Assembly (NCBI GenBank): GCA_029237695.1
Contig: CM055273.1
Location: 56,533,968-56,597,967 of the forward strand
Reading direction: 5' to 3'
Length of the DNA stretch: 64,000 bases
Source of the DNA: Conchocele bisecta
Lineage: Eukaryota; Mollusca; Bivalvia; Lucinida; Thyasiridae
Shown here: in pieces, positions 2,701-58,560 of the stretch
Position numbering within the stretch: the stretch's first letter is position 1
How the letters are laid out: the number at the start of each line of letters is the position of its first letter
Position numbers and translations under genes: made by a program
The notes under the pieces: generated by a model
Seen by the model: the letters and a program-made list of their open reading frames with translations, nothing else
Told to the model about the DNA's origin: nothing
The model's database searches: none

Positions 2701-2707
2701 GTCGATA

Positions 2708-3265: not shown

Positions 3266-3349
3266 GTTGAATTTGTATCCCTGCACAATGTTCGGGGGAG
3301 GGTTGTCAATGTCATAATGTGTCCGGTTGTACTTGTTCCACTCGAAGCC
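3266..3349 (-). CDS. CACTIN: Cactin exon (conserved C-terminal block)
   Basis: The exon is 84 bp, 28 codons, in phase 0, with acceptor TTGCAG and donor GTATGT. It encodes GFEWNKYN, then a DIDNPPPNIVQGYKFN block. This matches the start of the conserved C-terminal Cactin domain, which in animal orthologues reads GFEWNKYNQTHYDFDNPPP. Cactin is a nuclear, spliceosome-associated protein; in flies it was found as a Cactus/I-kappa-B partner. The gene runs leftwards on the minus strand. The final ~80 residues of the protein (ending in an RYRR-type tail in orthologues) should follow in one or more exons left of this one and are not present in positions 1-3265, so they lie outside the window. Confidence 0.9.
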
Positions 3350-26182: not shown

Positions 26183-29100
26183 ATGTGTTTTTGTTTTTTT
26201 TTTTGTATTTCAATTTTGTATTCTCTTTGTTACATATAATACATACATGTGCATACACAATTTTACAATTTATGTGTACAAAACGATTGAACAATTGATA
26301 GAGGTAAAAACATTTTCTTTGTCTTAGTATATGTGACATGTAACAACGAATTTTTATATGATAATGTGTATGGGTGTTGTGGGTATACATGGGTGCGAGG
26401 GTTTGGGCCGTGGTTAATGCAACAAACAAAAAAGAGAGATAACGTTTTTGGCATTACTAGTATATATATATATATATCTATGTGTGGGTACTTGGTATAC
26501 GTTTTGATTAGTTAGTTGAAGTGAAAATCATTCCATTTTGTATTAGATTGCAACAGTTTATCTTTAATTGTCGCAATTGTCTCTTCAATTAAGATTGTTT
26601 TATGTAGATACATATTGAATGAGTTTAGTGTTAGCAGTGTTGAGCAACATTTACATTTGAATATAAAATAGTTTGCTAGAAGGATAATGAAATTAATTAG
26701 AACCGACCTTTGTTTAGATACTACGTTAATATTACAAAATGATATGTGTTCGTAATTTAGATGTGCATTGTAATTTAGTTTCGATTTCAATAATTCATCT
26801 ATTTCCGACCAAAATGTTTGGATAGTTTGATATTCCCAAAACATATGTTTATTTGAATCTACGTTCATATTACAAAATTCACACAAGTTTGATGGTTTCA
26901 AGTTACATACAAATAGGAAGGAGTTATTTGGTATTATTCTCATTAGGTATTTGTACTGGAATGCTCTTAGTTTTGTGCTTATAGTATTTTTGATAGGTGA
27001 GATAAATATTTTCTTCCATTTAATATTTTGAATATTTAATTCATTTTCCCATTTGACAGTGAGAATTTAATATAGTTAATCGCATTGTATCGATTTGTAT
27101 GTCATATAACATCTTATTGGCCATTTTATTTTTTAAAAGTTTCGAAATTAGATATTCAGGTGTGCCAGTGTCAATATTTTCTGTTTTAAGTGTTTCTTTT
27201 CATGCATCTTTAATATTACTTATTAATGTATAGTACTTTAGGAAATCTCCATTGCTTAAATTGTACAAATTCTTTAGTTCATGAAATGTATAGAAGTTTT
27301 TTGTTCTGTAATCGTAAATATTTGTTATAAACATTATACCTTTATCGTGCCAATCTCTATAAAATAATGTATTGCTTTGTTTGATGTTGGTATTATGCCA
27401 TAATATTTCATTTGATATGACAGGGTGTATATGTTTAAAGTTAATTTTACTCCACGATGTAATAATCTCACCTAAAAATGTGTACCTTTTTATGATCTGT
27501 TTTGCATCAACTTGATTAAAATTACACTTGAACAGTAAATCACCACCATACTTGTTCAATTCATTGTTATAAGCTGTGTTTTCCATTGATTCTGTGATCC
27601 CTTTAATCTTTTTTAATCCAAGATGCTTTTAATGAATGCAAAAAAGCTTGAATATTTATCATTTTTAATCCACAATTTTCGTAGTTTTGAATAATTGTTT
27701 TTCTACATATTTTATCAGGTTTTCCATCCCAAAGAAAGTCAAACATATATTTATTTATCTCTTTAATGATTTCATCAGATGGATTTTCTAGTACAGTCAG
27801 CGGATATACGAGCTTAGGGAATGCAAACGTTTTTAATACTGCTATTTTACCTATTAGTGTTAGGTTCCATTTTTTCAAACTATTTATGCAGTTCTGGAAT
27901 GACTTAAATTTGGGTGTTAGATTTAGTAGTTGCAGTTTTGTTTTATCGTTTGTAAAAGTTATTCCTAGAGTTGAGGCTTGTTCATTGGACCATGTATATA
28001 AGTTATTGTTGCACCATTTATTTGTGTTATATCTAGTTGTTCCCAATTTTAAAATAGTACATTTTCCTTTGTTTAATTTTAACCCAGATATATTTGCAAA
28101 TTGTTCTAGAGTTCTAACAAGTTCTTTGAACGATTGTTCGGTGCCATCAAGTGTAAAGCTTGCATCATCTGCAAAAAAAAAAGTGTTTATTTTATTTCCT
28201 CCCCACCAAGAGTTTGACCTTTATATTTGTGTTACTGTTAATTGTACGTGACAATAGCTCTATGCATAGTATGAAAATATATGCTGATAAAGGACAGCCT
28301 TGTCTGACGCCATTTTAACGTTAAAGACATTGGATAGATGACCGTTATTTGTGATACAACTTTTAGCGTCTTTGTAAAATAGAGTTATCTATTGAATTAG
28401 TGAGTTGCCAAAGTTGAGATGCTGTAGACATTTAATTATAAATTTATGGCTTAGACTATCGAAAGCTTTTTGAAAGTCTGCAAAAAATATCATTCCTGTT
28501 TTATTGTTTTCATTTGTGTCATCAATTATTTCCATAAGGGTTCGTACATTTTCTCCAATATATCTTCCTTTAATGAACCCTGTCTGGTTAAAATGTATTA
28601 GGGTGTTTAATACTTTCTTGATTCTGTTAGCTATTACTTTTGTTTCAATTTTATAGTCAACGTTTAAAAGTGATATTGGTCTCCAGTTTTCAATAAAGAG
28701 CGTATTTTTATCTTGTTTTGGTTGTAAGAGTAATTATGCCTCGTTTTTGAAGTTCCGTTTGAGTTCCATTTTCATGTGAGTAATGTATCGACTTTATATA
28801 ATAATCCTTTATATCACTCCAGTAAAGTTTATAAAATTCTGCTGTTAAACCATCGGATCCAGGACTTTTCATGTTTTTCATTTCCTTTAAGGCTAATTGA
28901 CATTCGTATTCATTTATTATACCATCACATAATTGTTTTTCAGCATCATTTAGTTTATGTTCTGTCGTGTTTAAGAAACTGTTATCGTCATTATCTAAAT
29001 TTAAGTCCTCGCTATATAACCCTTCGTAATAATCTTTAACATGATTCAAGATATTTGTATGGTCTGTTTCGATGTTATTCTGTATGTTTAGCTGTTTAAT

Positions 29101-30155
29101 TGTTCGTTCTTCTGATCGTTTTTTCTTCCATGTTCGAGAAATATTTTGTATTTTTTTCAGCACCTTCCACCCATTCAGCTTTTGATCTTAAACGTATTCC
29201 CTTTGTTTTTTCTTCAGTTATGTTATCAAGTTTACTTTTCTCCAAATTAAGTTTGTCTGCTACATCTTGATTGGTTGGGTTTTCATTTATTTGTCTTTCC
29301 AATTGTTGAATTTCTTTTTCTATTTTAGTTTCTTCCTCTCTTTGTTTCTTTTTCAATGTACTTGAGTATTTAATTGCTTCAATTCGTACTGAACCTTTTA
29401 TTAGTTCCCACATAGTGTTTGGGTTACATCCATTATTGATGGTAGCAGTTTCGTGTATTGTATATTTTATATTTTGTTTAAATTCTGTTTGTAGTAGTAA
29501 ACTAGTATTTAATTTAAAATAGCCGGTTCCTCTAACCGTTTCGCATACATTCAGATATAAGTAATTTCCGAATGATCTGAAAGAAATCCGGAAATTATGT
29601 CACATTCTGTGACCATATTTAGCATATTAGCTGTTATAAGAAAATAGTCTAGTCTGCAAAATATAGGTGATTTGTGATTAGAATGCCACGTGAATCGTTT
29701 TTTGTCCGGATGCCTGACTCTGAATATATAATATAATTCATTGTTGTTGATAATATCGTTTATTTTTTCCGAACATTTTTTATATCTATCTGTATTTCCA
29801 TTTAGTTTATCGGTTTCAAACATTTAGTACAATTGTTGAAATCCCCTCCTAAAACCATACTTTCACTATTATTCTCTAAAATTAGTTGTTCTACTTATTG
29901 ACACAAAGTTACGTCATCTTCATTGGTTTATATATATTTAATAGTACTATTGTTGTATCGTGTACTTTAATTTTTAATAACTGTAGGCGTCCCTGTATTA
30001 TTTCTGTATGTTCGAGTATTTCGTATGTCGATGTTAGATTCAGTAGAATACCACTACCTTGCTATTGGAGATGTTTCCACTTAGGAAAATGTCTTGACCC
30101 CATTGTTTCTTCATTTTCTTTCTTTCTTTTGTTTCTTGTGTACAGTGAAGTTCTG
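26183..30155 (-). mobile_element. L1/Tx1-like LINE, degenerate
   Basis: About 4 kb on the minus strand, with poly-T at 26189-26206 on the plus strand, i.e. a 3' poly(A). Read 5' to 3' it has an endonuclease with a QETK region and GGDFN (around 29845), and RLDYFLI with SDHS near its end (29560-29660). A coiled segment follows (29100-29410). The reverse transcriptase has SPGSDGLTAEFYK (28850), GFIKGRYIGEN (28570), FFADFQKAFD (motif A, 28470) and the catalytic FADD (28163-28175). Last is a C-terminal CEFC-x-H Cys/His region (26850). Several frameshifts and stops break it, one in an A run next to FADD. The 5' end is truncated. Nuclear, copy-and-paste element; dead as it stands. Confidence 0.85.
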
Positions 30156-33900: not shown

Positions 33901-34969
33901 CGTGCCGTCATCAACCACTTCACCATTCCTGTGCCATCATCAACAACTTCACCATCCCCACGCCGTCATCAACCACTTCACCACCCTGGCGCCGTTATTA
34001 ACCACTTCACCATCATACCGCCGTCATCAACAACTTCACCATCCTCGCGCCATCATTAACAACTTCACCATCCCCGCGCAGACATCGACCACTTCACCAT
34101 CCCCGCGCCGTCATCAACCACTTAAACATCCCCACTCCACCATCCCCGCGCCTTCATCAACCACTTCACCATCCCCGCGCCGTCATCAACCACTTAACCA
34201 TCCCCACGCCGTCATCAACCACTTCACCATCCCAGCGCCGTCATCAATCACTTCACCACCCCGCGCCGTCATCAACCAATTCACCACCCTCGCGCCGTCA
34301 TCAACAACTTCACCATCCCCGCGCCATCATCAACCACTTCACCATGCCCGCGCCGTCATCAAACACTTCACCATCCCCGCGCCGTCATCAACCACTTTAC
34401 CATCATACCGCCGTCATCAACAACTTCACCATCCTCGCGCCGTCATTAACCACTTCACCATCCCCGCGCAGACATCGACCACTTCACCATCCCCGCGCAG
34501 ACATCGACCAATTCACCATCCCCGCGCCATTATCAACCACTTCAACATCCGACTCCACCATCCCCGCGCCGTCATCAACCACTTCACCATCCCCGCGCCG
34601 TTATCAACCACTTCACCATCCCCGCGCCGTCATCAACCACTTCACCATCCCCGCGCCGTCATCAATCACTTCACCATCACCGCGCCGTCAACCAATTCAC
34701 CACCCTCGCGCCGTCATCAACCAATTCACCACCCTCGCCGTCATCACCATACACGCGCCGTCATCAACCACTTCACCATCCCCACAGCCGTCATCAACCA
34801 CTTACCATCACCACGCCGTCATCACCACTTCCTCACGCCGTCCATCAACCACTTCACCACCTCGACGCCGTCATCAAACCACTTCACCATCCATCAGCAC
34901 CTCAATCATCACCAACGTCATCACCCACATCATCACCTGCATCACTCACATGATCACCCACATCACCTA
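33900..34969. repeat. 29-bp minisatellite
   Basis: The unit is CCGCGCCGTCATCAACCACT plus TCACCATCC, about 36 copies. Because 29 is not a multiple of 3, a reading frame passes through all three frames of the unit in turn, and none has a stop, so a frame of over 350 codons stays open. The encoded text is His/Pro/Ser repeats without any domain. It runs directly into the second gap. Confidence 0.92.
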
Positions 34970-35469
34970 NNNNNNNNNNNNNNNNNNNNNNNNNNNNNNN
35001 NNNNNNNNNNNNNNNNNNNNNNNNNNNNNNNNNNNNNNNNNNNNNNNNNNNNNNNNNNNNNNNNNNNNNNNNNNNNNNNNNNNNNNNNNNNNNNNNNNNN
35101 NNNNNNNNNNNNNNNNNNNNNNNNNNNNNNNNNNNNNNNNNNNNNNNNNNNNNNNNNNNNNNNNNNNNNNNNNNNNNNNNNNNNNNNNNNNNNNNNNNNN
35201 NNNNNNNNNNNNNNNNNNNNNNNNNNNNNNNNNNNNNNNNNNNNNNNNNNNNNNNNNNNNNNNNNNNNNNNNNNNNNNNNNNNNNNNNNNNNNNNNNNNN
35301 NNNNNNNNNNNNNNNNNNNNNNNNNNNNNNNNNNNNNNNNNNNNNNNNNNNNNNNNNNNNNNNNNNNNNNNNNNNNNNNNNNNNNNNNNNNNNNNNNNNN
35401 NNNNNNNNNNNNNNNNNNNNNNNNNNNNNNNNNNNNNNNNNNNNNNNNNNNNNNNNNNNNNNNNNNNNN
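34970..35469. other. Assembly gap (500 N)
   Basis: Exactly 500 N, a placeholder gap. The left flank is 29-bp minisatellite and the right flank is polymerase coding sequence, so unrelated material may have been joined here. Confidence 0.98.
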
Positions 35470-37420
35470 AAAGTACTGCTTGATGAGGTTCAGGTCGTAC
35501 CTGCTACAGTTGAACCCCACCACCGGGACTTGGTCAATCCATGAGATAATCTTTGCTTGCTGAGACTTCGATAACATATCTATGTCGGCCGGCAGATACT
35601 TCTTCCTCCTGATTGCCTTGCCTCTCATCTGCAGCTCGGTCACGAACTTCTCGACTAGCGTGTCGGGATCTCGTTCGCATAGGTGTGTGATCCCTTCATG
35701 CATCGTATCCCCCAACGACACCGATATAGGAACGTGCTCGACCTCGAAGGTCAGGTCTTTGGTGGGTCGCGTGCTTTTTGACTTGTTGAGATACGCCTCG
35801 AAGTCGTAGACTATCTGGTGGGGGTACAGAGTCGTCTCCTCCTCGCGTGGCGATTGTGGATAGTAGGTATTAATTTTATCAAAATTATCATTCAACCACT
35901 TACACTCCCACATCACCACCAGCTCGTAACCCGCCTTCCTTATTTTGGCGTCTTGAATTTTCGTCCTCTTGTACAGCGATCTCGCGTTACCTCTCATGCA
36001 ATGCCTCGGACACCCGTGCCAGTAGCATCCGTGAAACTGAAACACGGTCTCGGTCTCGTGACAGTAACCGTCGACCGGATCACCGGCCACCCACCTCTCA
36101 CCACCGTGACCGCAGTTGGCGTGATGTATGTGCTTTCCCACCCTCTCCTCTTCTCTGCTCAACCATTGAATCGACCTCACACTCGCTGACCCCTTAGGAT
36201 AGAACGTAGAACGCCTTCTCGTAGGCCGACTGTGGTCTCTCTACCCTCTTACCTGGACAGGTCACCACGGTCTTCCCACCCATGCAGGTGGTCGCGTGCC
36301 TGTGCATGTTACACGACTTTGTGAACCGTTGTTGACATCCGGTGCACCCGTACTCGTTCGTCATATTGCGGAGATTCGTTATGAGGAACGAGTGACCTCC
36401 AAACATTCCTATCGTCATTGTCTTCCCCCCAACCACGTCGTAATTTGCTGGAACCTTCATGAGGTACCACACTCCGTCGGCGGTGGGCTCGTAAACGCGA
36501 ATGCCCATCTTGAAGCGCTCTTCTACCTTCTTAATATCATCCAGGGGGATTCCCTTACTACCCGGTCCGTTATCGTGCCCGAGGTATTCGCGAGCCAGAG
36601 CTCGTGCCTTCCTACAACACCCGTCGGGTCTCCCTCCACGTTGGATGGCTATGCACCTAACACACAAGTAGTCGTCGTACGTGTCGACGGAATACATTCC
36701 CTTTTTCTGTCTTAACCAGTCTGGGAGTTTTCCCGCTCCCATGAGAAGTTGTTGAGCGTCGATGATCATCTTCACCTCGACCGATATCCAACGAACGAAG
36801 GTCCATTTTGTGTTTGGTCTATCGACTTTGTCGATGTCCATTCGACCTTTCTCTCTATCGGATATCCAACTCTCGGCTTTGGCGATCTCGTTTATCCACG
36901 GACTGCCCTTTGATTGTTTGTGATAGATCATAGTAGCGTCGGTCTCTATGTTCCTAATACGATACGAGTACGAATACCTCAGATAACATGCCGTGGTCAT
37001 CTCTGGGCGAATTTTATTCATTATGCGATTAGCGATCTCCCCGTCTACCCCCATCTCGAAAGTCCATACTATCTTCCTCCTACCCCTATCAACAGTTTCC
37101 CTAACTTCGGCTTCTTCGGCGAGAATCCTGGGACCCTCCTCCACCAAAGCTCTGGCGATATCTCTCCTCTTCTTGGGAGGTCCCCCCCTCCCCCCACCAA
37201 CCCTTGATAAATCTTATTGTAGTACGCCCTTGTATAGGGGTTTTCTACGTGCGCTGGGATCTTCTTTTACACGCTGCGCGTAAGCGGTGGCGCGCAGACT
37301 GGCCGTCGTCTCGTTCTCCAATTTCTCGGAGGGTTTTTCGGGGTCGGCGGGCAGTCGTCCGGTCGAAACCGCACGCCGCAGCCTCTCCTCGTAGACGACG
37401 GCTCGCGTGTCACTTATCCT
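35470..37420 (-). pseudogene. Family B DNA polymerase (protein-primed type), N-terminal part, broken
   Basis: Minus-strand coding sequence of a Polinton-like or adintovirus-like element. The downstream frame (from 36180) has an endonuclease-like GCYWHGCPRHC segment at residues 51-61, then the 3'-5' exonuclease: motif I YDFEAY (D126, E128) and motif II GFNCSRYD (N224, D229). It is cut by the gap, so exonuclease III and the polymerase palm are not seen. The upstream frame (36194-37147) carries a Cys2-His-Cys/His finger, CTGCQQRF with HRHATTC. Frames change near 36190 and near 37200, with stops at both, and a third stretch continues to ~37420. GC content is clearly higher than the flanks. The product would replicate the element's own DNA; this copy cannot encode it intact. 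Confidence 0.8.
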
Positions 37421-43174: not shown

Positions 43175-43869
43175 AGGCACATACTCACTCAGTGGGCACA
43201 AAATGATATTTATAGGAATTAAATAAGTGTATAATTGTGTCGCTATTCCACCATTTCTAAAGATTACGAGTGCCCACTATACATATATAATCATTTAGTA
43301 ATATTTATTTTTCTGTAGTGACTCGCGGTGGTATCGGTCTATTTTCATATACAAAAAATGAGGCATTATATTTTTTAATATTCTTTATACTAATTAAATG
43401 CGTCACCTGAACAAATTTCGACAGATTATAAAGTAAGATCATTGCACATCAAAAAATAAAATACAAAGAATAAGTTGTAATGTCCGTTAACATTTTACGG
43501 AAACACGGTTATCGCCCCTGATATCAGTGTGGAAATTTACGTCTGGATATAATAAAATGTATAATAGTGCAAATAATTAATGTCAGGTGGTCGGATTAGC
43601 TCAGTAGGTAGAGCGTCGGACTGCGGATCGGGAGACCCCGGGTTCGATTCCTTGTCCTTGGACAAGACAACTTCGTGCTAGCATATCGGATGAGGACATA
43701 AATAGTCGGTCCCCCCGACATGCAAGGTCATCGAGGCAGTGCCGTCGTTAAATCAAAGCATTTACATTTACAATACATACGTGAATGTATGTTTATTTTG
43801 CCAGAAAATGTATCGGATGATGTCTCTGATATAAAGGAAAGTTTGTGCGTAATGAGTGGACATGTAGCT
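43175..43869. mobile_element. TTAA-type TIR element with SINE inside
   Basis: The left end AGGCACATACTCACTCAG and right end ATGAGTGGACATGTAGCT are eroded versions of the AGGTACATGCCCAC TIR. TTAA is kept on the right (43870-43873) but not the left. Content matches 26050-26182 plus 30156-30433. A SINE interrupts it at 43590-43775. It starts 52 bp from the acceptor of exon 2. Confidence 0.82.
43590..43775 (+). mobile_element. tRNA-derived SINE
   Basis: The head resembles a tRNA: A box TAGCTCAGTAGGTAGAGCG, an anticodon arm that does not pair well, and B box GGGTTCGATTCC. The body has CGGATGAGGACATAAATAG and GTCATCGAGGCAGTGCC. The head is not a convincing working tRNA because the acceptor and anticodon stems are mismatched. 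Confidence 0.7.
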
Positions 43870-44765: not shown

Positions 44766-44929
44766 ACTCCCATATGTTCAGTTAAAACATGTAATTTTCA
44801 CATAGTAAAGTCATTTCAAACATAACAAGAGTTGTCAGAAGACAACAAAGCTCGCCTGTTGGCAGCCTTCACTCAAACTTGGCACAGTTGTATAACAAAC
44901 ATGAATATTATATAACTTGACCTTGGGTT

Positions 44930-47600
44930 AAGGGGTGTGCGGTGGACCTTGACATTGGGGTCAGTGGTGGAAGGTGGGTCGTGGATTTGCTATAGTATGA
45001 TATAGCATATTAAGATGAATGCATGTATGAAATATCAATGCGCTCCCTGAAAACAGAAGCTATACAAAATTTAACCCAACGTTAAGTTTATGAACGCACT
45101 AATTTACGTTGGTGATTTTCTACAGCATGATACCTATTCACATGAGGAATGTGCTAAGTTTGTGACCTTGACCTTGGGGAAAGGGGTGGGGGTGGGTCAT
45201 GGATTTGCTGTAGCACAATAGAGGATCATCAGATGAATGCATGTATGAAATCTTGATCTTGGGGAAAGGGGTAGGGATGTGTCATGGATTTGCTGAAGCA
45301 CAATAAAGGATCATCAGATGAATATATGTATGAAATATCAAAGCGTTCCCTGTAAAGAAACAGAAGTTACACAACATTTACCCCAACGTTAAGTTTATGA
45401 ACATGCTAAGTTTGTGACCTTGACATTGGGATAAGGGTTGTGTGGTGGGTCTTTGCTACAGCATGGTAGAGTATCATCAAATGAATGCATATATGAAAGG
45501 AAACAGATGTTATAAGACATTTACCCCAACGTTAAGTTTATGAATGTGCTAAGTTTGTGACCTTGACCTTGGGGTAAGGGGTGGGCGATGGGTCATGGAT
45601 TTGCTATAGCACGATAGAGTATCATCAGATGAATGCATGTATGAAATATCAAGGCGTTCCATGAAATGAAACATATGTTATAAGACATTTACCCCAACGT
45701 TAAGTTTATGAACATGATACGTTTGTGACCTTAACCTTGAGGTAGGTGTTGGGTGGTGGGTCGTGGATTTGCTACAGCATGATAGAGGGTCATCTGAGGA
45801 ATGCATGTATGAAATATCAAGTTCCATGAAAGGAAACAGATGTTACAAGACATTTACCCCAACGTTAAGTTAATGTCAACGTTAAGTTCATGAATGTCCT
45901 AAGTACCTTGACCTTGGGGAAAGGGGTGGGGTGGGTCATGGATTTGCTATAGCACGATAGAGTATCATCAGATGAATGCATGTATGAAATATGAAGGCGT
46001 TCCCTGTAAATAAACAGAAGTTACACAACATTTACCCCAATGTTAAGTTTATGAACATGGGTGGTGGGTTGTGGATTTGCTACAGCATGATAGAGGGTCA
46101 TCTGAGGAATGCATGTATGAAATATCAAGGCGTTCCATGAAAGGAAACATATGTTATAAGACATTTACCCCAACGTTAAGTTTATGAACATGCGAAGTTG
46201 TGACATTGACCTTGGGGTAAGGGTTGTGTGGTGGGTCGTGGATTTGCTACAGCATGATAGAGGGTCATCTGAGGAATGCATGTATAATATCAAGGCGTTT
46301 CATGAAAGGAAACAGGTGTTATAAGACATTTACACCAACGTTAAGTTTATGAATGTGCTAAGTTTGTGACCTTGACCTTGGGGTAAGGGGTGGGCGGTAT
46401 GAAATGGAATGCATATATGAAAGGAAACAGATGTTATAAGACATTTACCACAACGTTAAGTTTATGAATGTGCTATGTTTGTGACCTTGACCTTGAGGTA
46501 AGGGGTGGGCGATGGGTCATGGATTTGCTATAGCACGATAGAGGGTCATCTGAGGAATGCATGTATAAAGGCGTTTCATGAAAGGAAACAGGTGTTATAA
46601 GACATTTACACCAACGTTAAGTTTATGGATGTGCTAAGTTTGTGACCTTGGGGTAAGGTGTGGGCGGTGGGTCATGGATTTGCTATAGCACGATATAGTA
46701 TCATCAGATGAATGCATGTATGAAATATTAAAGGTACATGCCCACGCAGCAGGTTACACTGTACTCCTACTTTTCATTTTCTGTCATGCCTTATATGCAC
46801 CATTTGTCTACCCACTAACGAGTTATTTGTAATTACGGCGCGTGTTAATTGGCAAGCCGTGATGTGAAAGCCGTCGTCCCCGCACATTATCAAAATAGAC
46901 TGTTACCGCCGCGCGTCGCTAACAGTAAATTGATAATTAATAAATGATTATATTTGTATAGCGGGCACTCGTAATTTTTAGAACTGGTGGAATAGTGACA
47001 TAATTATACACTTATTTAATTCCTATAAAGAACATTTTGTGCCTACTGCGTGGGCATGTACCTTTAAGGCGTTCCATGAAAGGAAACAGATGTTATAAGA
47101 CATTTATTCCAACGTTAAGTTAATGAATGTGCTAAGTTTGTCACATTGACCTTGGGGAAATGGGTGGGGGTGGGTAATGGATTTTCTAGAGTATCATCAG
47201 ATGAATACATGTATGAAATATGAAGGCGTTCATCCCTGTAAAGAAACAGAAGTTACACAACATTTACCCCAACGTTAAGTTTATGAACATGCTAAGTTTG
47301 TGACCTTGACCTTGGTGTAAGGGTTGGGTGGTGGGTCGTTGATTTGCTACAGCATGATAGAGGTTCATCTGAGGAATGCATGTATGAAATATCACGGCGT
47401 TCCATGAAAGGAAACAGATGTTATAAGACATTTTCCCCAACGTTAAGTTTATGAACGTGCTAAGTTTGTGACCTTGACCTTGGGGTAAGGGTTGGTGGTG
47501 GGTAATGGATTTGATACAGCATGATAGAGTCATCTGAGGAATGCATGTATGAAATAACAAGGTGTTCCATGAAAGGAAACAGAAGTTATAAGACATTTAC
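44930..47600. repeat. ~166-bp tandem core of family A copy 1
   Basis: CCCCAACGTTAAGTTTATGA marks units near 45073, 45384, 45524, 45690, 45855, 46032, 46166, 46333, 46451, 46609, 47107, 47269, 47439 and 47606. Most units carry TGACCTTGACCTTGGGG and GGATTTGCTATAGCACGATA. Some units are shortened. Confidence 0.92.
46732..47063. mobile_element. 332-bp MITE with perfect 18-bp TIRs and TTAA target duplication
   Basis: TIRs AGGTACATGCCCACGCAG and CTGCGTGGGCATGTACCT are exactly inverted. TTAA stands on both sides (46728-46731, 47064-47067). It lies inside a tandem array whose other units read GAAATATCAAGGCGTTCC at this point, so the empty site is visible. Its right half matches the 43 kb and 53.8 kb elements; its left half (AACGAGTTATTTG, GCCGTCGTCCCCGC) is different. 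Confidence 0.95.
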
Positions 47601-47689
47601 CCCAACGTTAAGTTTGTGGACGCCGACGCCGACGACGCCGGGGGTATACTATAAGCTCTTCTGCACTTCGTGCAGGCGAGCTAAAAATT

Positions 47690-48563
47690 GCCATGTTTTG
47701 TTCAATATTAATGCACAAACAGCTGCTAAGAATATAGTAGCCAGGGGGATGTTTATTATAATATATGTTGTATGTATCCATTGACGTTAATGGGTTAATA
47801 TAATACAACAAATGAATAATGCACATACCCACAAGGTAATCAATACATGCATATTTATATTCTAAAGATTTATGAGATTACACTTGCAGATTTGAACATA
47901 ATATATACAACAGAAAAAAAAATAGCATACATACAATGTATGGCTTTCAACTATAATAATGTATACGGATATGTAGTGTTGCTTTTTTTTTGCTACATTC
48001 TTGTAACCAATATTTGTGTCATCTTTAGATTTAAAAACTGGGCTTGGTTCCATTTTTTCGACAATTCCGTTGGCCGCCATCTTGGATTTCAAAATGGTCT
48101 CCCTGAAATGCTATATTCATTATACGAGGGGAGTTCAATAAATTCCCAGAAAAGTCCTGTAACATACCCATTTTTAATTGAATTGTATAAAAACTCACGT
48201 GATTTTCAGATACAAATAAAAAAAATGTTATGGTCTTCAATTGGGCATGCAATTTACGAAACTCGATTATGCAAAACTGAAGACCGATAACCATAGTAAC
48301 GTCATGTTCTGTGACACAGCGCACTTGCGACGTCAAGAATAGATTTTTGCAAACAAAAAATGACGTTTTCGATTGATTGAATATGGCACAGTATGCAAAC
48401 TAATTATATTTCAATTATTAATTGGTCATTCAGCAATAAGTAACGTAATGTACATAACTTGGTGACGTCAAACTATTTTTTCGGACATCGTGCATCAATC
48501 TCGTGGACGCCAACTTTGACGCAGTACAAAATAGCCATCGAACAGGGAAATCCAATCAAATGT
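47690..48563. other. Intergenic stretch
   Basis: No gene is recognised. Frames at 47847-48336 are AT-rich and lack domains. Confidence 0.4.
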
Positions 48564-48972
48564 TACTTTGATTATCGACGGAATTAATTATATTTCAGTG
48601 ACTGATTGGCGAACAGCATATACCCTGATCATTGATCTGGGACTATGCTGGTAGCAGACACCTTAAGCTCAATTTGTCACAGGTGGAAGACTCGGACCTG
48701 TGACACCAAAAAATGCCCATTGCAAAAACAAATACATTACCCCACCCACTTGGTCTCATACAGTACTATCTTTAAAGAAGATAGTACTGTATGAGACCAA
48801 GTGGGTGGGGTAATGGATTTTTTGTAATGACATTTTTGGTGTCACAGGTCCGGGTCTTCCACCTGTGAGAAATTGATATTAAGGTGTCTGCGACCCCAGA
48901 TCAGAGATCAGGGTATATGCTGTTCGCCAATCAGTCACTGAACTATAATTAATTCCGTCGATAATCAAAGTA
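48564..48972. repeat. 409-bp palindrome
   Basis: TACTTTGATTATCGACGGAA at the left end returns inverted at the right end. The arms (~209 and ~198 bp) stay matched through the GACTGATTGGCGAACAGCAT and CAGGTGGAAGACTCGG segments to the centre near 48774 (CTATCTTTAAAGAAGATAG). There is almost no spacer. Confidence 0.95.
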
Positions 48973-49094
48973 CTAAAAGAACTGAAACTATCGCCAGATA
49001 TGGTGTGGGGTGCCCTAAAAACACACCAGATCACTTAGCCACTTATCCGAATACCGGATGGCCAAACCAGGTGCAAAATAGGGAACACGCATTA

Positions 49095-49150
49095 TAGTAA
49101 CCGTTACATAGGTACCGGATGGTACCGGTTGCGGTTGGTACCGGTACCGG
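49095..49150. repeat. GGTACCGG short repeats
   Basis: Five copies of GGTACCGG or one-base variants lie within 50 bp. Function unknown. Confidence 0.7.
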
Positions 49151-49481
49151 CTTATATGGATGGCCCAAAAATGGCAACTGACAGCCATAGTTATTGCTTC
49201 TAAAAATAGATAAATAAAATAGCGATACCTAACAATAGTAGCATACATTTAATGCTTAGCGACCAGTGTAGCATCCGCGCAGTCTGTTCAGGGCCTACAC
49301 TGTTTGACATGCCACTACTGAAGTACCCTTAATGACATCAACATTAGTTCAGTAAACAATTTTATCCAGTCAACACAGTGTGTATGTGCCGTGAAACACG
49401 GTGCCGTGAAACATTTTTGATATCCAGTCAATACTATTTTTGCATTTTACAGCCATTTGTAGATGTTGACGGGATAAATAT

Positions 49482-49585
49482 AATAGTAGGTTAGTGCCGT
49501 GAATGGGAAAAAATATCTGGCGCGGCACGGAATTTCCTGAGCCTTGCCAGATATTTTTTCCCATTCACGGCACTAACCTACTATT
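49482..49585. repeat. Perfect 40-bp inverted repeat, 24-nt spacer
   Basis: AATAGTAGGTTAGTGCCGTG plus 20 more bases (49482-49521) is exactly inverted at 49546-49585. A single arm recurs at 49680-49728 (GCCGGATATTTTTCGCATTC), next to a single arm of the ACCACTCATTTGAACC family. Confidence 0.97.
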
Positions 49586-50282
49586 CTCTATCTATTTTCC
49601 TTCTTTCTGAACCAAAATATATGTTGTGACCACTCATTTGAACCGTCTCTCTGATGAGAAATAAAGAAATTATTGAGCCTTGCCGGATATTTTTCGCATT
49701 CACGGCACTAACCTACTATTCTCTATATTACGGTGGCAGACATAGCACTATGGCTTCATCACTCTCGGAGCACGATAACAGAAAAAGAAATATTTCAGAT
49801 TAATATGTAAGTCTATTACAGTAGATACTTCTGTCTGTTTCACAAAACCTGCCCACATTTTACGGCTATATAAACAATTCAGAAACTATTTTTTTTTATA
49901 ATATTAAATTTTACAAACATTTAAGAATGAGCCTTTTTTTTATTTCGTGAAATTTGGTCATATATAGATTTTATTACGAAACATTGATTTGTATATGGGG
50001 TAATTAAAGGAGGTGAAGGAGCTGGGGGACGAGCCAACCAAATGGAAATTGACTTCGAAAACTAGCCAGACAGCTTGGAAATAATCTAACTAAGAAAACA
50101 AAAGTTAAATTTTGAAAATCGGTCCACTATTTCTGAAATCAGAAAAAAGCTCCATGTTAAATGTACATGCCCCCTCAGTAGGCACACACTGTTATTTATA
50201 TCAGAGACATCATCTGAGACATTTTCTGGCAAGATCAACATTCATTCAAACCGTGTTACCTTAAATGTTAATGGACATTACT

Positions 50283-50328
50283 TTTTAGCTCGACTATTCG
50301 AAGAACAAGTAGAGCTTATGTTGTCACC

Positions 50329-50360
<32 letters not shown>

Positions 50361-52080
50361 ACCGTCACGCATTGGTTAAGGTTTTTAGTATATGGAATAC
50401 TACTGGCCCTACACCCATCATACTTGCACAACTTCATCTCCTAGTGATGTACATCAATAACCCCTGATCTATATTTGACCTTCACCTACATTTCCTCTTG
50501 AATTACTTAGTTAAATTCCCCTTGGTTAAGGTTTTTTTAGTCAACCTTGGTTAAGGTTTTTTTTAGTCAAGCTTGTACATAGAATACTATTGTGCATACA
50601 GACACCATACTTGGACAACCTTTTATCATAGGGATGTACATCAATAACCCCTGATCTATATTTGACATTGACCTACATTTCCTCTTGAATTACTTAGTTA
50701 ATTCCCCTTGGTTAAGGTTTTTAGTCCAGCTTGTATATGGAATACTCCTGGCCCTACACCCACCATACGTGAACAACTTCATCTCCTAGTGATATACATA
50801 GTTAATTCCCCTTGGTTAATGTTTTTAGTCAACCTTGGTTAAGGTTTTTAGTCAAGCTTGTACATGGAATACTAATGTGCATACAGACACCATACTTGGA
50901 CAACCTTTTCTCATAGGGATGTACCTCAATAACCCCTGATCTATATTTGACCTTGACCTACATTTCCTCTTGAATTACTTAGTTAATTCCCCTTGGTTAA
51001 GGTTTTTAGTAAAGCTTGTATATGGAATACTCCTGGCCTTACACCCTTGGACAACTTCATCTCCTAGTGATGTACATCAACAACCCCTGACCTATATTTG
51101 ACCTTGACCTACATTTAACCTTGAATTACATAGTTAATTCCCCTTGGTTAAGGTTTTTAGTCAACCTTGGTTAAGGTTTTTAGTCAAGCTTGTACATGGA
51201 ATACTAGTGTGCATACGGACACCATACTTGGACAACCTTTTCTCATAGGGATGTACATCAATAACCCCTGATCTATATTTGACATTGACCTACATTTCCT
51301 CTTCAATTACTTAGTTAATTCCCCTTGTTTAAGGTTTTTAGTCTAGCTTGTATATGGAATATTCCTGGCCCTACACCCACCATACTTGGACAACTTCATC
51401 TCCTAGTGATGTACATCAACAACCACTGACCTATATTTGACCTTGACCTACATTTAACTTTGAATTACTTACTTAATTCCCCTTGGTTAAGGTTTTTAGT
51501 CAAGCTTGTACATGGAATACTATTGTGCATACTAGCAACATACTTGGACAACCTTTTCTCATAGCGATGTACATCAATAACCCCTGATCTATATTTGACC
51601 TTGACCTACATTTTCTCTTGAATTACTTACTTAGTTCTCCTTGGTTAAGGTTTTTAGTCAAGCTTGTAGATGCAATACTCCTGGCCCTACACCAACCATA
51701 CTTGGACAACTTCATCTAGTGATGTACATCAATAATCTCTGACCTATATTTGACCTTGACCTACTTTTATCCTTGGATTACTTTCTTATTTCCCCTTGGT
51801 GAAGGTTTTTAGTCAAGCTTGTATATGGAATATTCCTGGGCCTACAGCAACCATACTTGGAAAACTTCATCTCCTAGTGATGTACATCAATAACCCCAGA
51901 CCTATATCTGACATTGACCTACATTTAACCTTGAATTACTTACTTAATTTCCCTTGGTTAAGGTTTTTAGTCAACCTTGGTTAAGGTTTTTATGCAGGCC
52001 ACGGCCACCTTGTTTGTCAAGCTATGTGTACATCGACAACCCTCGTAGTTGAGCTATGCTGTTCTCCTACAGCTCTTGTT
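50283..52080 (-). mobile_element. Minisatellite-carrying element, family A, copy 2
   Basis: Read on the minus strand: 5' AACAAGAG, hairpin CTGTAGGAGAACAG, GCTC; 3' GACGCC microsatellite, then AATAGTCGAGCTAAAAA. These are the same terminal rules as at 44825-47687. The core is ~160-170-bp units (plus strand: CTTGGTTAAGGTTTTTAGTC, TGGACAACTTCATCTCC, TTGACCTTGACCTACATTT), about ten, partly shortened. It has no coding capacity. Confidence 0.8.
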
Positions 52081-52248
52081 ATTTTCTGTATTTATTTGTT
52101 GATGTGCAATGATCATACTTATTAATGATTCAATTGAAGCATTTAGCTAAAAGAATAGCATGCCTCATGTGTATATGAAAATAGCCTGATACCACTGCGA
52201 GTCACTAACAGTAAAATAAATGTTACTAAATGATTATATCTGAATAGC

Positions 52249-53784
52249 TACGGGGCGCCATGCAGGACATGTGTACAAAATTGAGTTTTGTAACACTAAA
52301 TATCACAAAATTCAATTCTGTGTCACAAAAATTTTGTCAATTCTGTGTCACAAAATTCAATTCTGTGTCACAAAATTCAATTCTGCATACGTTTCGTATA
52401 CAAAATTCATTTTTGTTATAAAGGATTCAATTTTGTAAGACAGAATTGAGTTTTGTGAAGAAAATTCAGTTTTGTAGGACAGAATTCATTTTTGTCCACA
52501 ATAATTAGTTTGCGTAGGATAGTCTATGTCATCTCTACGTTGATTGGTTGAGATCGGTCTTAGTCCATTTTTACTAGATGGTGGAGTACACTTGCAGGTT
52601 TAAATATTTCAATGCGAAAATATAACCCAATATATCAATATTATACTTCTTTATGGACAGTTATTTTGGTTATATAGATTACAAATGAGTGGTCACACCA
52701 TATAAGCATATATACTTTGAAGGAGAAATAAGAAAAATATTCAGAATTTTAATTTTCCCTCAATTATGTAAACAGGGTCAAACATAAAGTAGCCGGGACA
52801 TAGCTAGACCTGAGAGCATGCCCTATATAGAGAATACCAGGCTAGTGTATTTTGATATCAAGTTTATCAGGCAAGGCTAGGAAACGCGTAGGAATTCCGA
52901 GGCTTGCCGAGGAATTCCTACCGTTTCCGAGCCGAGCCTGATAAACTTGATATTAAAATACACTAGCCTGGTATTCTATTTATCAGGTAACGTTTTATGC
53001 TCGAAAATGACATTAGATGACGTCGTATTCTAACAGTAGATCTAACCTTGTGAAACAAATGGTATTGGATCTGTGTCTACTAGTTGCGAAGTTACGTGTT
53101 CGCAACTATGTGTCTACATGCATTATTTACAGTATACACCATCTTAGTACATGTATCCATGGTATCTGCACAAATACTACAAATGGTTTCCTCAAATGGC
53201 CCAATACACACATCTGTTTATAAACACAGACAGCAGTCAGAACACAGGCCACAGCGCGTGTATTATTGATTTAACTGGGGCAGATGTACCTTGCGATACA
53301 CACTAAATGACGTCAGTACTCGCGGGAGATCTACATGTACATGAATTATGTGTACAATTATAACGCAAATGAGTTTAAATACGAATGGGTTTGTCAACGT
53401 TTGACTGTTTGGAGATAGTTGAAGCAAAATGGCAGAATGAGAAATGAATCATCGGCAGAATGAGAAATGAATCATCGACATTGAATGTGTAGATCGGCGA
53501 CCGTGACCCATTTCTCCAGTGCAGTTTCTGACCAATGGTAGTCCTTCTTACATGCGTGTGCAGAATTGACAGAATTGAATTTTGTGGCACAGAATTGAAT
53601 TCTGTGGCACAGAATTGAATTTTGTGACACAGAATTGAATTCTGTGGCACAGAATTGAATTTTGTGACACAGAATTGAATTCTGTGGCACAAAAGTGAAT
53701 TTTGTGACACAGAATTGAATTTTGGTTGGCACAAAAATGAATTTTGTTGACAAAATTGAGCCATGTCCCACTTGGCGCCCCGTA
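52249..53784. mobile_element. Foldback-like element with minisatellite in inverted arms
   Basis: The ends TACGGGGCGCCA and TGGCGCCCCGTA are inverted. ATAGC stands on both sides (52244-52248, 53785-53789) and occurs once in the uninterrupted relative at 46962. Next to each end are tandem 20-bp units: TGTGTCACAAAATTCAATTC at the left, the reverse GAATTGAATTTTGTGACACA at the right (53560-53760). The middle has a 147-bp palindrome (52831-52977). Long inverted arms made of short tandem repeats are the hallmark of Drosophila FB elements. No transposase is seen. Confidence 0.82.
52831..52977. repeat. Palindrome within the foldback element
   Basis: AGAATACCAGGCTAGTGTAT and TTTGATATCAAGTTTATC at the left are inverted at 52936-52977. 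The inner part contains GGAATTCC twice. A single arm lies at 41849-41915, another at 15650-15700. Confidence 0.9.
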
Positions 53785-54174
53785 ATAGCGGGCACTAGTA
53801 ATTAATTTTTAGAACTGGTGGAATAGCGACACAATTATACACATATTTAATTCATATAAAGAACATTTTGTGCTTACTCAGTGGGCATGTACCTCTACAT
53901 TTGATAAACCGTTTTGTAAGAACTCTTTCTTTTCACAGGATATTGATTATAACGACGTTCGCGTGTCCGTGCGTACATGCATCCGTCCGAAATCTGCGCT
54001 ACGGTTTTTAAATAGTTTATATATCTGCAACCCTATTTAACGTTATATTAAAGAAAATAACAATTTGACCCTACAGAGACAATTCTGAATCACTTCCCTC
54101 AACACAAGTACTTGTTTTACCTTGTCGTATGTATACCAGGGGCGGATCCAGCATTTGGGGAACGTGGGGGTTGT

Positions 54175-54254
54175 CTAGTTGCGAAGGTAACTCTTGCAAA
54201 CTCTAGCTACGGACGGTACGGGAGTAGATTGCAAGAGTTACCGTTCGCAACTAG
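54175..54254. repeat. 25-bp inverted repeat
   Basis: CTAGTTGCGAAGGTAACTCT (plus TGCAA) at 54175-54199 is inverted at 54229-54254 with one extra base; the spacer is 29 nt. Confidence 0.9.
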
Positions 54255-54366
54255 GGGGTTGTCCTATTGTTGAGCTCTTCGAAATGCACTTTCCTGTGTT
54301 TTACGGCATTTAAATTCAGACTCTAACTGGTGGTAAACTGTGATCTATGTAAACTCCATGGCTGAA

Positions 54367-54391
54367 CGGGGGGTGGGGGGGGGGGGGGGGT
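54367..54391. repeat. Poly-G tract
   Basis: A run of over 20 G with two T interruptions, able to form a G-quadruplex in principle, and a likely place for length error in the assembly. Confidence 0.9.
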
Positions 54392-54496
54392 GCAACCCTG
54401 GAACCACCGCTTTAGATCCTCCCCTGCATACACTATTTTTGAAACACAAATTGCTGGGCGAAATAGATTAATGAAAGTGCGGCCCATGGAAATTAA

Positions 54497-54710
54497 CCTT
54501 TTGAACCCGAAAGCCGCTATAGCGGTTTATGCTCGTAACGAGCCGTCTCAGGATCTGCACTTTTTGCAAGTAATTTTCATATTTTTGAGAGCAAAAAAAT
54601 ACACCTTTTTCATAAACTAGTCTGAAAATAATATTGTGACGATTGGATTGGTCGGAAAATATAACCATATCAAAATACATCCAGTTACTTAGGGGTGAAT
54701 GGGTGAATGA
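54497..54710. mobile_element. 222-bp-type TTAA MITE, inverted eroded copy
   Basis: It starts after TTAA with CCTTTTGAACCCGAAAGC and ends near TTACTTAGGGGTGAATGGG, the reverse of 13760-13981 and 19969-20190. Confidence 0.75.
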
Positions 54711-54770
54711 AAGTGAAGCCCATGAAAATTGAACACAGTGATGTTTTCTTGGTATATGTATGAATATTAA

Positions 54771-55008
54771 CCCTTAGACCGCTACACACAACAATTGTCG
54801 TCTGCTGTTGCTTTATATCTAGCCTTATTTCTGAATAAAAACATGGTTTAACAGCACTTTACAATCATTTCCAATTCTAACTGCTGTCAAAGCATGTAGG
54901 AAATGATTATAAAGTGCTGACAAAGCATATTTTTGGTGATAAAAATGGAAAATGGAAAATAGAAAATAAACAGCAGACGACAAAAACTAATATATAGCGG
55001 TGTAAGGG
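54771..55008. mobile_element. TTAA MITE (CCCTTAGACCGCT family)
   Basis: It follows TTAA (54767-54770) and has ends CCCTTAGACCGCTA and TAGCGGTGTAAGGG. The palindromic interior is as at 19144-19365. It ends 28 bp from the donor site of the exon at 55036-55455. Confidence 0.82.
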
Positions 55009-55035
55009 TTAGGGAGGTTATACAAAAATACTCAC

Positions 55036-55455
55036 CATGTAGTTCAGCCTACTATCAACAAATGGCGCTTGTCCCATGGAGAAGTCCAGACTTTCCCTGT
55101 TCTTTAAGTTATACGGCTCCTCAGAGGGTGGGTCGATATAATAGTCCCTGATCAGTTTTATCAGTCTTGGGTCATCTTGAGCAACTTTCTCTTCGTTTAA
55201 CTTCATCATCGCCGCTTTATAGTCAAACAACGGGTCTCTGTTCGTTTTAATAACATGCGGACTAAACGGTTGTGCGTTAACATCATATGTGTGCTGCTTT
55301 GCATCAATGGAGAATTCCTCTGCTGGTTTTCCGACAGACAATCTACTGTCCGGCGATGGTAAATACTGTGCATTATCTCTATTGTGCAGCAGGTATACCA
55401 TTACAGCGAGGACGCATGCGCCGTAGAATAAATACAGTCGCGTTTCAGTCCTCAT
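55036..55455 (-). CDS. FkbM-methyltransferase / Star-like protein, exon 1
   Basis: The exon is 420 bp, 140 codons, start ATG at 55455, donor GTGAGT, phase 0. It has a short basic cytosolic end (MRTETR), a membrane helix at residues 7-23 (LYLFYGACVLAVMVYLL), and then a soluble stem. This is a type II signal anchor, expected in Golgi or ER. Residues 92-99 (AQDDPRLI) and 126-130 (SMGQA) are the conserved run-up to the FkbM domain in Star-like animal proteins. The exon continues into NDGFYIECGALDGE of exon 2. It may act as a glycan methyltransferase or, like Drosophila Star, as a membrane trafficking cofactor; the sequence does not decide. The start is chosen because the helix follows directly. 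Confidence 0.85.
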
Positions 55456-55498
55456 GCTTCACCAGTGCCCAGAATTATTTTACACGGGATCTGTCAAC

Positions 55499-55561
55499 AA
55501 TTGAAGAGGTTAGTGAAAGAAGGGGGCTAAGCCCCCTTTCTACTTACTACTTCAAGGGCAT
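55499..55561. repeat. Palindrome, GACCCCTTCA-like family
   Basis: TTGAAGAGGTTAGTGAAAGA and AGGGGGCTTAG-type centre, with inverted ACTTACTACTTCAA at the right. It lies ~45-105 bp upstream of the start codon of the FkbM/Star-like gene, so it sits in the likely promoter or 5' untranslated region. Confidence 0.75.
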
Positions 55562-55665
55562 TACATGAACATGAAGTGATACATTAAAGTCACTTTATCT
55601 CTATACTAGCATTCAATATGTGGTTTTACACTAGTGTAATAAATATGCAAAGTAGCTCGTTATAG

Positions 55666-57523
55666 AACAAGAGGGCCATGATGGCCCTAATTCGCTCACC
55701 TGACTCCATGAACACCAGAGGAGAATGTGACATTGAGTTCATGTGTTTTAAAAAAATTGTGCTATTTTTAGATGGCGGTCATCTTGGATTATGCAATGAC
55801 TCTCATTTTACCAAATCTGAAAATGCTTCACCCAAGGATCTTAACTTACTATGAAGTTTGGCCATCATCGGCCATGTGGTTTCTGAGAAAAAGACGTTCA
55901 AAATCTCGAATAAATGACCTTTTGGCGGCCATCATGGATGACATAATCATCCGATTCAGACAAATATTGCACCAGAGCAATCGCCTCATCGATACCTTCA
56001 ATTTGATATATGACATTAGCATATTAGGTCAAAAATAAAATTTGACGCCACGGGCCACGCCCATTTTTGACCCTGTCGTCACCATTTTCACAAATTTGAA
56101 AGAGCATTGTATATCAATCATTCCTACCAAGTTTCATCGAAATCCGGCCAGCGGTTCATGAGAAGATTTAAGAATTTGTGCTATTTTTAGACGGCGGCCA
56201 TCTTGGATTAGCTACGACCTCCATTTTAACAAATCTGAAAAGGCTTCACCCATGGACCATCTCTCAAAAAATGCACCAGAGTGATCGCCTCATTGATACC
56301 TTCAATTTGATATATGACATGACCATATTTGTTCAAAAATAAGATTTGACCCCAATTTGACCCCACGGGCCACGCCCATTTTTGACCCCGGGGTCACCAT
56401 TTTAACACCTTTGAAAGAGCATCGTACATCGATCATTCCTACCAAGTTTTGTCGAAATCCAGCTAGCGGTTCATGAGAAGAAGATTTTTTTAAGAATTTA
56501 TGCAATATTAGACGGCGGCCATCTTGGATTAGCGATGACCTCCATTTTAACAAATCTGAAAAGGCTTCACCCATGGACCATAACTTTTAAGTTTGGCTAC
56601 CATGGGCCAAGCGGTTCATGTGAAGAAGAATTTTGAAATCTCTAATAAAAGAACAACCTTTTGACCTTTCGGCGGCCATCTTGGATGGCCTAACCATCCG
56701 ATTTCGACAAAAAATGCACCAGAGTGATCGCCTCGTTGATACATTCATTTTGATATATGACAAGACCATATTCGGTCAAAAATAAAATTTGACCCCAATT
56801 TGACCCCACGGGCCACGCCCATATTTGAACCAGGGGTCACCATTTTAACAACTTTGAAAGAGCATTGTACATCGATCATTCCTACCAAGTTTTGTCGAAA
56901 TCCGGCTAGCGGTTCATGAGAAGAAGATTTTTTAAGAATTTATGCTATTTTTAGACGGCGGCCATCTTGGATTAGCGATGACCTCCATTTTAACAAATCT
57001 GAAAAGGCTTCACCCATGGACCATAACTCTTAAGTTTGGCTACCATGGGCCAAGCGGTTCATGTGAAGAAGAATTTTGAAATCTCTAATAAAAGAACGAC
57101 CTTTTGACCTTTCGGCGGCCATCTTGGATGACCTAACCATCCGATTTCGACAAAAAAATACACCAGAGTGATCGCCTCGTTGATACCTTCAATTTGATAT
57201 ATGACATGATCATATTTGTTCAAAAATAAAATTTGACCCCACGGGCCACGCCCATTTTTAACCCCGGGGTCACCATTTTAACAACTTTGAAAGAGCATTG
57301 TACATCGATCAGTCCTACCAAGTTTTGTCGAAATCCGGTCGGCGGTTCTTCAGAAGAAGATTTTTGAAGAATTTGTGCTATTTTTAGACGGCGGCCATCT
57401 TGGATTACGTAATGATGTAATTTTAACAATTTTGTAATCCCCCTACCTAAGGACCATGACCATGAAGTTTGGTGACTATAGGCCCAATGGTTACCGAGGA
57501 GAAGACGTTTGAAAATGTTCACG

Positions 57524-57558
<35 letters not shown>

Positions 57559-57625
57559 ACGACGAACGACGGACACATTGTGGTAACAATAGCTCACATG
57601 AGCTTTGCTCAGGTGAGCTAAAAAA
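55666..57625 (+). mobile_element. Minisatellite-carrying element, family A, copy 3
   Basis: Left end AACAAGAG, hairpin GGGCCATGATGGCCC, then GCTCACCTG. Right end ACG microsatellite (57525-57563), hairpin AGCTCACATGAGCTTTGCTC, then CAGGTGAGCTAAAAA. GCTCACCTG and CAGGTGAGC are inverted. The core has units of ~420 bp in which half-units alternate (AGACGGCGGCCATCTTGGAT, GGGCCACGCCCATTTTTGAC, AGCGGTTCATGAGAAGAAGA). No coding capacity. Confidence 0.82.
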
Positions 57626-58560
57626 GGGGTTCGTGATTAATACAGCGTCAATGTATGACGATGTGGTTATGCAATAAAATAATTTAATATTTGCGTTGAT
57701 TTAATATGACCCGCGTCGTGGGGAAAATGTACATTATGGCAACATTTTGACATTTTTACTTTTTGAGGTTTTCTGATGCAGAACTCATTCTGAACATACA
57801 TGAACTGATGTTTCTTTTATCCAATTCCGATGTAAATTGGCTGATTTAGTCAACTTTTAGCACATACACTGAATGCGATTTGAACGCCACGTCGCTCATT
57901 ATAGTGGCGACGTCGCAACTTTTTTCCGACGTCACATTAACTATCTCAGAACAAAGTAGTCGTCTTTCGTCTTACGCCATGTATGATACATTTAGCCTAT
58001 AACATACATGTACCACGTAGAGGCGAACGTGTGAAGCAATAGAGAACTGAACAATAAGTTGAAAGATATACCGTTACACGTCAGATGCGCGCCGAAAATT
58101 ACGTAAATATTTCCGTAAATGGTCAAACGTGGGAACTTTCAGTATTGTGCACATGCGGATTTAAATTAATCAGCTCCTCTCATCGATTTATCAGACTTTA
58201 ACGTTGCATAGTTCGTAAAATTATATCACTGCATTTCTTCATATATTCCTTAAAATGGATTGTATAGATGACGGATTGGCTCTTGGCCGTAGGGTTGAAC
58301 GGTTTCACGTGATATCGGGGGAAAAGAACCATTTCCACTGCAGAAGAGTTAGCATACTTGAACAATATCGACCGACGTACAGTTGTGGTCGGAAGAATAT
58401 TTTAACGACGCTTTCAAAAGTGATTCTCCAAACCTGACAAAACATGCGGTACACCTATGCAGATCAAATCTGCACTCATAATCTGGGAAATATGGAAATA
58501 ACACAATACTGATATTTGGCGGCGTGTCTTGTTACAACACGCCGCACAACATACACACCG
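57626..58560. other. Intergenic stretch with one possible short ORF
   Basis: Mostly unique sequence. At 58255-58437 (+) a 60-codon frame starts MDCIDDGLALGRRVERFHVI after AAAATGG. Its composition is protein-like but it has no domain I know, no clear splice site and no support. It could be a first exon or chance. Confidence 0.3.

Follow-up and report, generated by a model that had tools for sequence, protein, structure and literature searches.

Transposons of the Helitron2 group carry asymmetric terminal inverted repeats (ATIRs), of which the 5' copy lies inside a hairpin, within 0-2 bp of the 5' end, and the 3' copy stops 20-30 bp short of the 3' end, immediately before a hairpin; insertion is in T runs (PMC3627910). 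In the oyster Crassostrea gigas, Cg_HINE elements consist of a 5' subterminal repeat, a complementary repeat, a GTC-type microsatellite, a satellite-like array, a 3' subterminal repeat and a palindrome. They occupy oligo-T targets without target duplication and form families with related ends and unrelated arrays, a given array being tied to a given flank pair (PMC7492417). The DINE-1/HINE elements of Drosophila and mites have subterminal repeats, a 3' stem-loop, a microsatellite and central tandem repeats, in T-rich targets (PMC4067079). Conserved ends are also described for the bivalve elements Pearl CvA, CvE and CvG, DTC84 and MgE (PMC7492417, PMC11136912), which are likened here by description only; they have been put with HINE (PMC7492417), and Pearl has central repeats of ~160 bp. 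The comparison is based on excerpts of these papers and also drew on excerpts of PMC5148889, PMC12628747, PMC10294476 and PMC7992393. We describe three elements resembling these systems from a 64,000-nucleotide stretch of the genome of the bivalve Conchocele bisecta (contig CM055273.1, positions 56,533,968 to 56,597,967; hereafter the window). We put the probability at about 0.93 that they are non-autonomous rolling-circle transposons of the Helentron/Helitron2 branch (HINEs), belonging to three families (W1, W2 and W3) with a common end architecture and different stems, repeats and cores.

The elements were assigned to the HINEs because their anatomy on the Helentron strand (Table 1) agrees with the published definitions, as excerpted (PMC3627910, PMC7492417, PMC4067079). 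Each has AGCTC at the 5' tip, an inverted repeat in a hairpin and a microsatellite of the GTC/GGCGTC type, and continues through a tandem core to a second inverted repeat, a second hairpin and a terminal CTCTTGTT. A preliminary description of the window had proposed three hairpin-ended elements with common terminal rules, and all three exist. On the strand used there, AACAAGAG followed by a hairpin and GCTC was present in all three copies, with the stems TTGTC/GACAA, CTGT/ACAG and GGCCA/TGGCC, and so was a microsatellite with a hairpin and GAGCT at the opposite end. These rules never arose in 40 simulated windows (Markov-1 sequences of 64 kb each). The AACAAGAG-hairpin-GCTC rule gave three matches in the window against none in the simulations; the hairpin-GAGCTAAAA rule, allowing up to two stem mismatches, caught two of the three copies and likewise gave none. 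Copy 2 was missed by the latter because of a bulge in its stem. Compared with the positions given there, copy 1 starts one base earlier, and the trailing AAAAA is host DNA. The direction of reading had been mistaken: the 5' end is the T-rich one, and CTCTTGTT forms the 3' end. On this opposite strand the layout, which had been taken for an undescribed rule set, is the anatomy that the excerpts give for Helitron2 (PMC3627910) and Cg_HINE (PMC7492417). The Helentron-like rolling-circle reading already offered at that stage fits every terminal feature tested.

The subterminal repeats were inverted in all three copies. Those of copies 1 and 3 match exactly over 10 bp; one lies within 0-1 nt of the 5' tip and the other 25-28 nt inside the 3' tip. 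In copy 2 the two repeats agree at 8 of 9 bases, with a single mismatch. HINEs are defined by such an asymmetry, in which one repeat is close to the 5' tip and the other 20-60 nt inside the 3' tip. The pair originally named for all copies, GCTCACCTG/CAGGTGAGC, is exact in copy 3 only; the pair is GCTCGCCTG/CAGGCGAGC in copy 1 and GCTCGACTA/TAGTTGAGC in copy 2. Among 26 elements from the window and the sampled loci (numbered with the prefix L), 25 could be scored over 9 bp, and 21 of these showed no mismatch between the 5' and 3' repeats (the 26th was unscored). The exceptions were the W2 copy, L025 and L015 with one mismatch each and L011_544- with two. L025 has no recognisable W3 5' end, and L015 and L011_544- have ends from different families. 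Each family thus retains its own matched pair, as expected if the ends must pair; common descent alone would also preserve such pairs.

The boundaries of W3 were sharp, as the preliminary description had suggested checking, and the lack of fixed ends that it named as a ground for refutation was not seen in the genome copies examined. Among W3 elements, one taken from each locus, the mean pairwise identity fell from 0.98 inside to 0.27 outside on the AACAAGAG side (20 loci) and from 0.98 to 0.29 on the GAGCT side (15 loci), which is chance level (0.28, from flank composition); the inside identity is partly fixed by the search motif, the outside identity is not. Joined 100-bp flanks of the 26 elements were compared with the window and the sampled loci, and the alignments were read by eye. 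A paralogous match across the junction was found for 15 of the 26 elements (9 loci), and for L018, L020, L028 and window copy 2 it lies elsewhere. AAAAA directly follows GAGCT in nearly all copies. In L018 and most L028 alignments the flank join was five bases shorter than the empty site; because the join lacks these five bases, the AAAAA is host DNA and looks like part of the target. The limits of the element are therefore AACAAGAG...GAGCT, within a two-base shift (the A's were tallied by hand). The empty-site alignments show insertion into a run of A/T, and no target-site duplication was seen in them. The host site of copy 2 is an interspersed repeat.

Table 1. Coordinates of the three elements, their ends and an empty site in the window
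Feature	Position	Strand (Helentron 5' to 3')	Description
Copy 1, family W1	44824..47682	minus	2859 bp; core units ~165-168 bp
Copy 1, 5' end	47654..47682	minus	AGCTCGCCTG subterminal repeat within 13-bp hairpin, 2 mismatches
Copy 1, 3' end	44824..44858	minus	CAGGCGAGC, hairpin TTGTC/GACAA, CTCTTGTT
Copy 2, family W2	50287..52080	plus	1794 bp; core units ~158 bp
Copy 2, 5' end	50287..50316	plus	AGCTCGACTA within bulged hairpin
Copy 2, CGGCGT microsatellite	50330..50360	plus	next after 5' hairpin
Copy 2, 3' end	52046..52080	plus	TAGTTGAGC, hairpin CTGT/ACAG, CTCTTGTT
Copy 3, family W3	55666..57619	minus	1954 bp; core units ~443 bp
Copy 3, 5' end	57591..57619	minus	AGCTCACCTGAGC hairpin
Copy 3, GAC/GTC microsatellite	57524..57571	minus	immediately inside 5' end
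Copy 3, 3' end	55666..55703	minus	TCAGGTGAGC, hairpin AGGGCCAT/ATGGCCCT, CTCTTGTT
Diverged empty paralogue of copy 2 host repeat	43425..43510		81% over 86 columns

The cores were compared all-against-all among the 26 elements, in addition to family assignment. The W1, W2 and W3 copies of the window shared at most 0.04 of their length among themselves, and the cores are unrelated between the three families, as first described. Within W3 the core was constant. Twenty complete W3 elements (window copy included) had a median size of 1636 bp (range 731-3603), and the W3 core was present in all 19 others (14 loci; six of them form one tandem array), each covering at least 0.99 of the length of window copy 3. 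Since 19 of 19 elements keep the W3 core, free swapping of cores behind one set of ends was rejected for W3; W1 and W2 had too few complete copies for this test. The coupling of core and ends in W3 corresponds to that described for arrays and flanks in Cg_HINE (PMC7492417). Capture of tandem repeats by the elements is plausible.

Ends of different families were combined in 2 of the 26 elements. L011_544- (locus L011, C1:289645-299600) has a W1 3' end and core, then a W2 core and 5' end, with poly-G at the join, and sits between two identical 152-bp spacers; it may be a true chimera or an assembly artefact. L015_500+ has a W3 3' end and a W1 5' end over 6.2 kb, with ~4 kb between the matching parts that is unlike W1-W3, and it looks like two truncated elements. 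At L014 (C1:481231-491031), six W3 elements are arranged in tandem with host spacers of ~135 bp that are identical or nearly so; the host junction of the first unit differs from the inner junctions. A further element was noted within the core of copy 1, a 336-bp insertion resembling a miniature inverted-repeat transposable element (MITE) at 46730-47065, with perfect 18-bp terminal inverted repeats (AAAGGTACATGCCCACGC) and TTAA-like flanks. At the 5' ends of W3 elements (57585-57619 in the window, and others), AACAATAG lies just inside the hairpin and echoes the AACAAGAG of the far end; no echo of this type was seen at the 5' ends of window copies 1 and 2.

The structured ends were searched for in the genome from which the window was taken (1.89 Gb), as had been proposed, with reversed patterns as controls. 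The pattern AACAAGAG-N(10,30)-GCTCACCTG gave 13,251 exact matches (control 2) and the pattern AACAAGAG-H-N(11,26)-GCTCRMNT gave 12,525 (control 47). The two patterns overlap slightly, as a W1 variant ending in GCTCACCTG fits both, and together they amount to roughly 25,000 exact 3'-end matches genome-wide. The match sequences inspected were the first places listed, all on contig C1. Among the 65 GCTCRMNT matches listed with letters, a hand count gave 42 of W2 type, 22 of W1 type and one W3-like. All 42 W2 stems were paired with GCTC(A/G)ACT, and all 22 W1 stems with GCTCGCCT, GCTCACCT or GCTCGCAT. Approximately 100 matches were listed for the GCTCACCTG pattern; two had the W1 stem, one a GGCCC/GGGC stem and all others the W3 stem or one of its variants. 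The matches listed thus represent three large families and not a freely varying stem. The earlier proposal that the shape of the hairpin is kept and not its stem therefore applies when families are compared; among the matches listed, members of one family largely keep the stem sequence. Stems and cores vary between families, not from copy to copy (for the core in W3, for the stem among the matches listed).

Minor variants were found in L009 (at 3564), L018 (at 6395), L028 (at 3472), L029 and L031, and L063 contains a further one of ~230 bp, the 5' end of which was placed by eye. Families without GCTC would escape detection because both search patterns require it. The W3 3' end had no matches in IMG/VR. 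A literature search with sequence strings of the elements, which did not cover Repbase, returned no paper on the subject by title.

The satellite-like cores raise the question whether these are ordinary satellites, flanked by short conserved boxes and spread by recombination and not by transposition. Tandem duplication of an element together with host spacer does occur, in L011 and in L014 (six spacers, five identical and one nearly so), as such a mode of spread would have it. However, the ends are fixed beside unrelated host DNA, the empty sites show no duplication and there are thousands of dispersed copies, which makes this explanation very improbable. The preliminary description had held that ends always accompanied by one core would indicate an ordinary satellite; ends and core are indeed coupled in W3, yet W3 is not an ordinary satellite because its elements are dispersed and have empty sites. 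The hairpins and inverted repeats at both ends could also be those of foldback elements or MITEs mobilised by a cut-and-paste transposase, and the first descriptions of related bivalve elements called them MITE-like. We give this hardly any credence, as the inverted repeats are placed asymmetrically (in copies 1 and 3, one at the 5' tip and the other 25-28 nt inside the 3' tip), the empty sites gave no sign of target-site duplication and the layout is that of the Rep-encoding Helitron2 group. Two element classes were also considered by their formal definition and rejected. The DDE MITE class has symmetric terminal inverted repeats and target-site duplication, and neither was found. Canonical Helitrons (Helitron1) have 5' TC, 3' CTRR, insertion between A and T and no 5' hairpin; the present elements run from AGCTC to CTCTTGTT, have a 5' hairpin and are inserted in an A/T run.

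Several observations weigh against assignment to the HINEs. Eleven of the 26 elements, copies 1 and 3 included, had no empty site among the sampled loci. The empty-site matches in L009, L011, L014, L016 and L023 were weaker and lay within host repeats of the same locus, and the empty-site paralogues of copy 2 were diverged (76-83%). At five of 19 loci with a W3 3' end (L015, L017, L021, L024 and L025) the stretch contained no W3 5' end that could be recognised, and the same holds for the variants L029-L031. None of the 30 (of 77) Rep places scanned showed an autonomous element with the two matching ends, and the partner may be either an endonuclease-bearing Helentron or an endonuclease-free Helitron2.

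We nevertheless regard the elements as HINEs that are abundant, cleanly bounded and ordinary in kind, with an unusually clear anatomy. A Rep-helicase supplied in trans would recognise the 5' inverted repeat with its hairpin and the 3' hairpin with CTCTTGTT, copy one strand as a rolling circle and join the copy into a T run; any tandem array between the two ends would be copied with them. If the 5' and 3' inverted repeats pair when a round finishes, as proposed for Helitron2 by Bao and Jurka (PMC3627910, as excerpted), this would keep a matched pair in each family. Judged from the same excerpts, there are also differences from the described systems. The window families share CTCTTGTT and the AGCTC start, unlike Cg_HINE (compared by description and not by consensus sequence), and their inverted repeat is 10 bp, against usually 11-12 bp in Cg_HINE (PMC7492417). 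In contrast to Helitron2 they have no recognised coding gene and contain long tandem arrays (PMC3627910). For DINE-1/HINE an autonomous Helentron partner is known, but not for the window families (PMC4067079). The coding check covered 43 stop-to-stop frames of at least 120 aa in the window; the two that overlap the copies (50090-50467, plus; 57220-57636, minus) had no Pfam matches. Elsewhere in the window, long frames at 26512-29599 (minus) and 34963-37213 (minus) appeared by eye to be similar to a long interspersed nuclear element reverse transcriptase and to a type-B DNA polymerase (large DNA transposon), respectively.

Candidate partners were sought around the Rep domain Helitron_like_N (PF14214), which had 77 matches in the genome, some neighbouring ones being fragments of one gene, and none in 14 control genomes. 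Among the best 120 of 286 matches in a Rep protein search most were nameless; the names included Saccostrea, two Mytilus, two Branchiostoma and two labelled as Proteobacteria metagenome-assembled genomes. Thirty of the 77 Rep places were scanned, ~1.5 kb on each side, and HINE ends were near Rep at two of them, L041 and L051. At L041 the W3 3' end is on the strand opposite to Rep and inside coding homology, and this locus was rejected as a nested insertion. At L053 (C13, ~56624584) a 169-bp array, 80-82% identical to an array in a W1-type element, is followed after a few hundred bases by a decayed Rep; nothing joins array and Rep into one element, and it was rejected as a second autonomous candidate. 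Nothing HINE-like was present upstream of Rep at L044. By eye, the frame lists contained no Helitron gene for L021 and L024, both of which lack a 5' end in the stretch, or for L017, which has only a W3-like 3' end.

At L051, which was analysed together with L062 (C8:69750061-69756400), a W3 5' end, followed by W3 core over 1.1 kb, runs in frame into Rep-PIF1. The identity of this W3 part is 91% with copy 3 and reaches 94% with other copies. The open frame of 1156 aa contains Helitron_like_N (positions 82-191) and a PIF1 helicase, and is followed by a 245-aa frame with Exo_endo_phos. Mismatches by codon position were 0.20/0.10/0.44 versus L047 and 0.21/0.11/0.45 versus L058, and this skew points to past purifying selection in the lineage. 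The preliminary description had asked which Rep/helicase element shares the ends; L051 has the W3 5' end and core, but the W3 3' end was not found within ~3.8 kb downstream of the endonuclease frame. This 3.8 kb contains an 8.5-copy array of 118 bp and a separate small W1-like HINE. The autonomous partner could be a Helentron of the L051 type, with the 5' end and core of copy 3 upstream of Rep/helicase and endonuclease, and the uninterrupted passage from W3 into open coding frames and the selection seen versus L047 are as such a partner would have them. Several features make it unlikely, however. Rep is truncated near profile position 82, where the W3 core begins, whereas the relatives L047 and L058 keep coding homology further upstream. 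The junction was crossed by L051 alone among the 40 matches scored, out of 1336 candidates. The W3 3' end was not found in the 3.8 kb mentioned, and a deletion fusing a nested HINE to a Helentron explains the junction equally well.

HINE-carried satellite arrays are a published explanation for the scatter of satellites in oyster genomes, and the Cg_HINE authors linked none of 10 autonomous oyster Helentrons to Cg_HINE, as far as the excerpts go (PMC7492417). That the autonomous partner of a satellite-carrying bivalve HINE is L051 or its ancestor, and that the satellite was born inside this partner and not captured by its derivatives, is a somewhat more doubtful proposal than that of an L051-type partner as such. 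In C. bisecta the question of the partner can be tested directly, as there are three very abundant families with well-defined ends, empty sites at several loci, and one locus at which HINE sequence is joined to a Rep/helicase gene.

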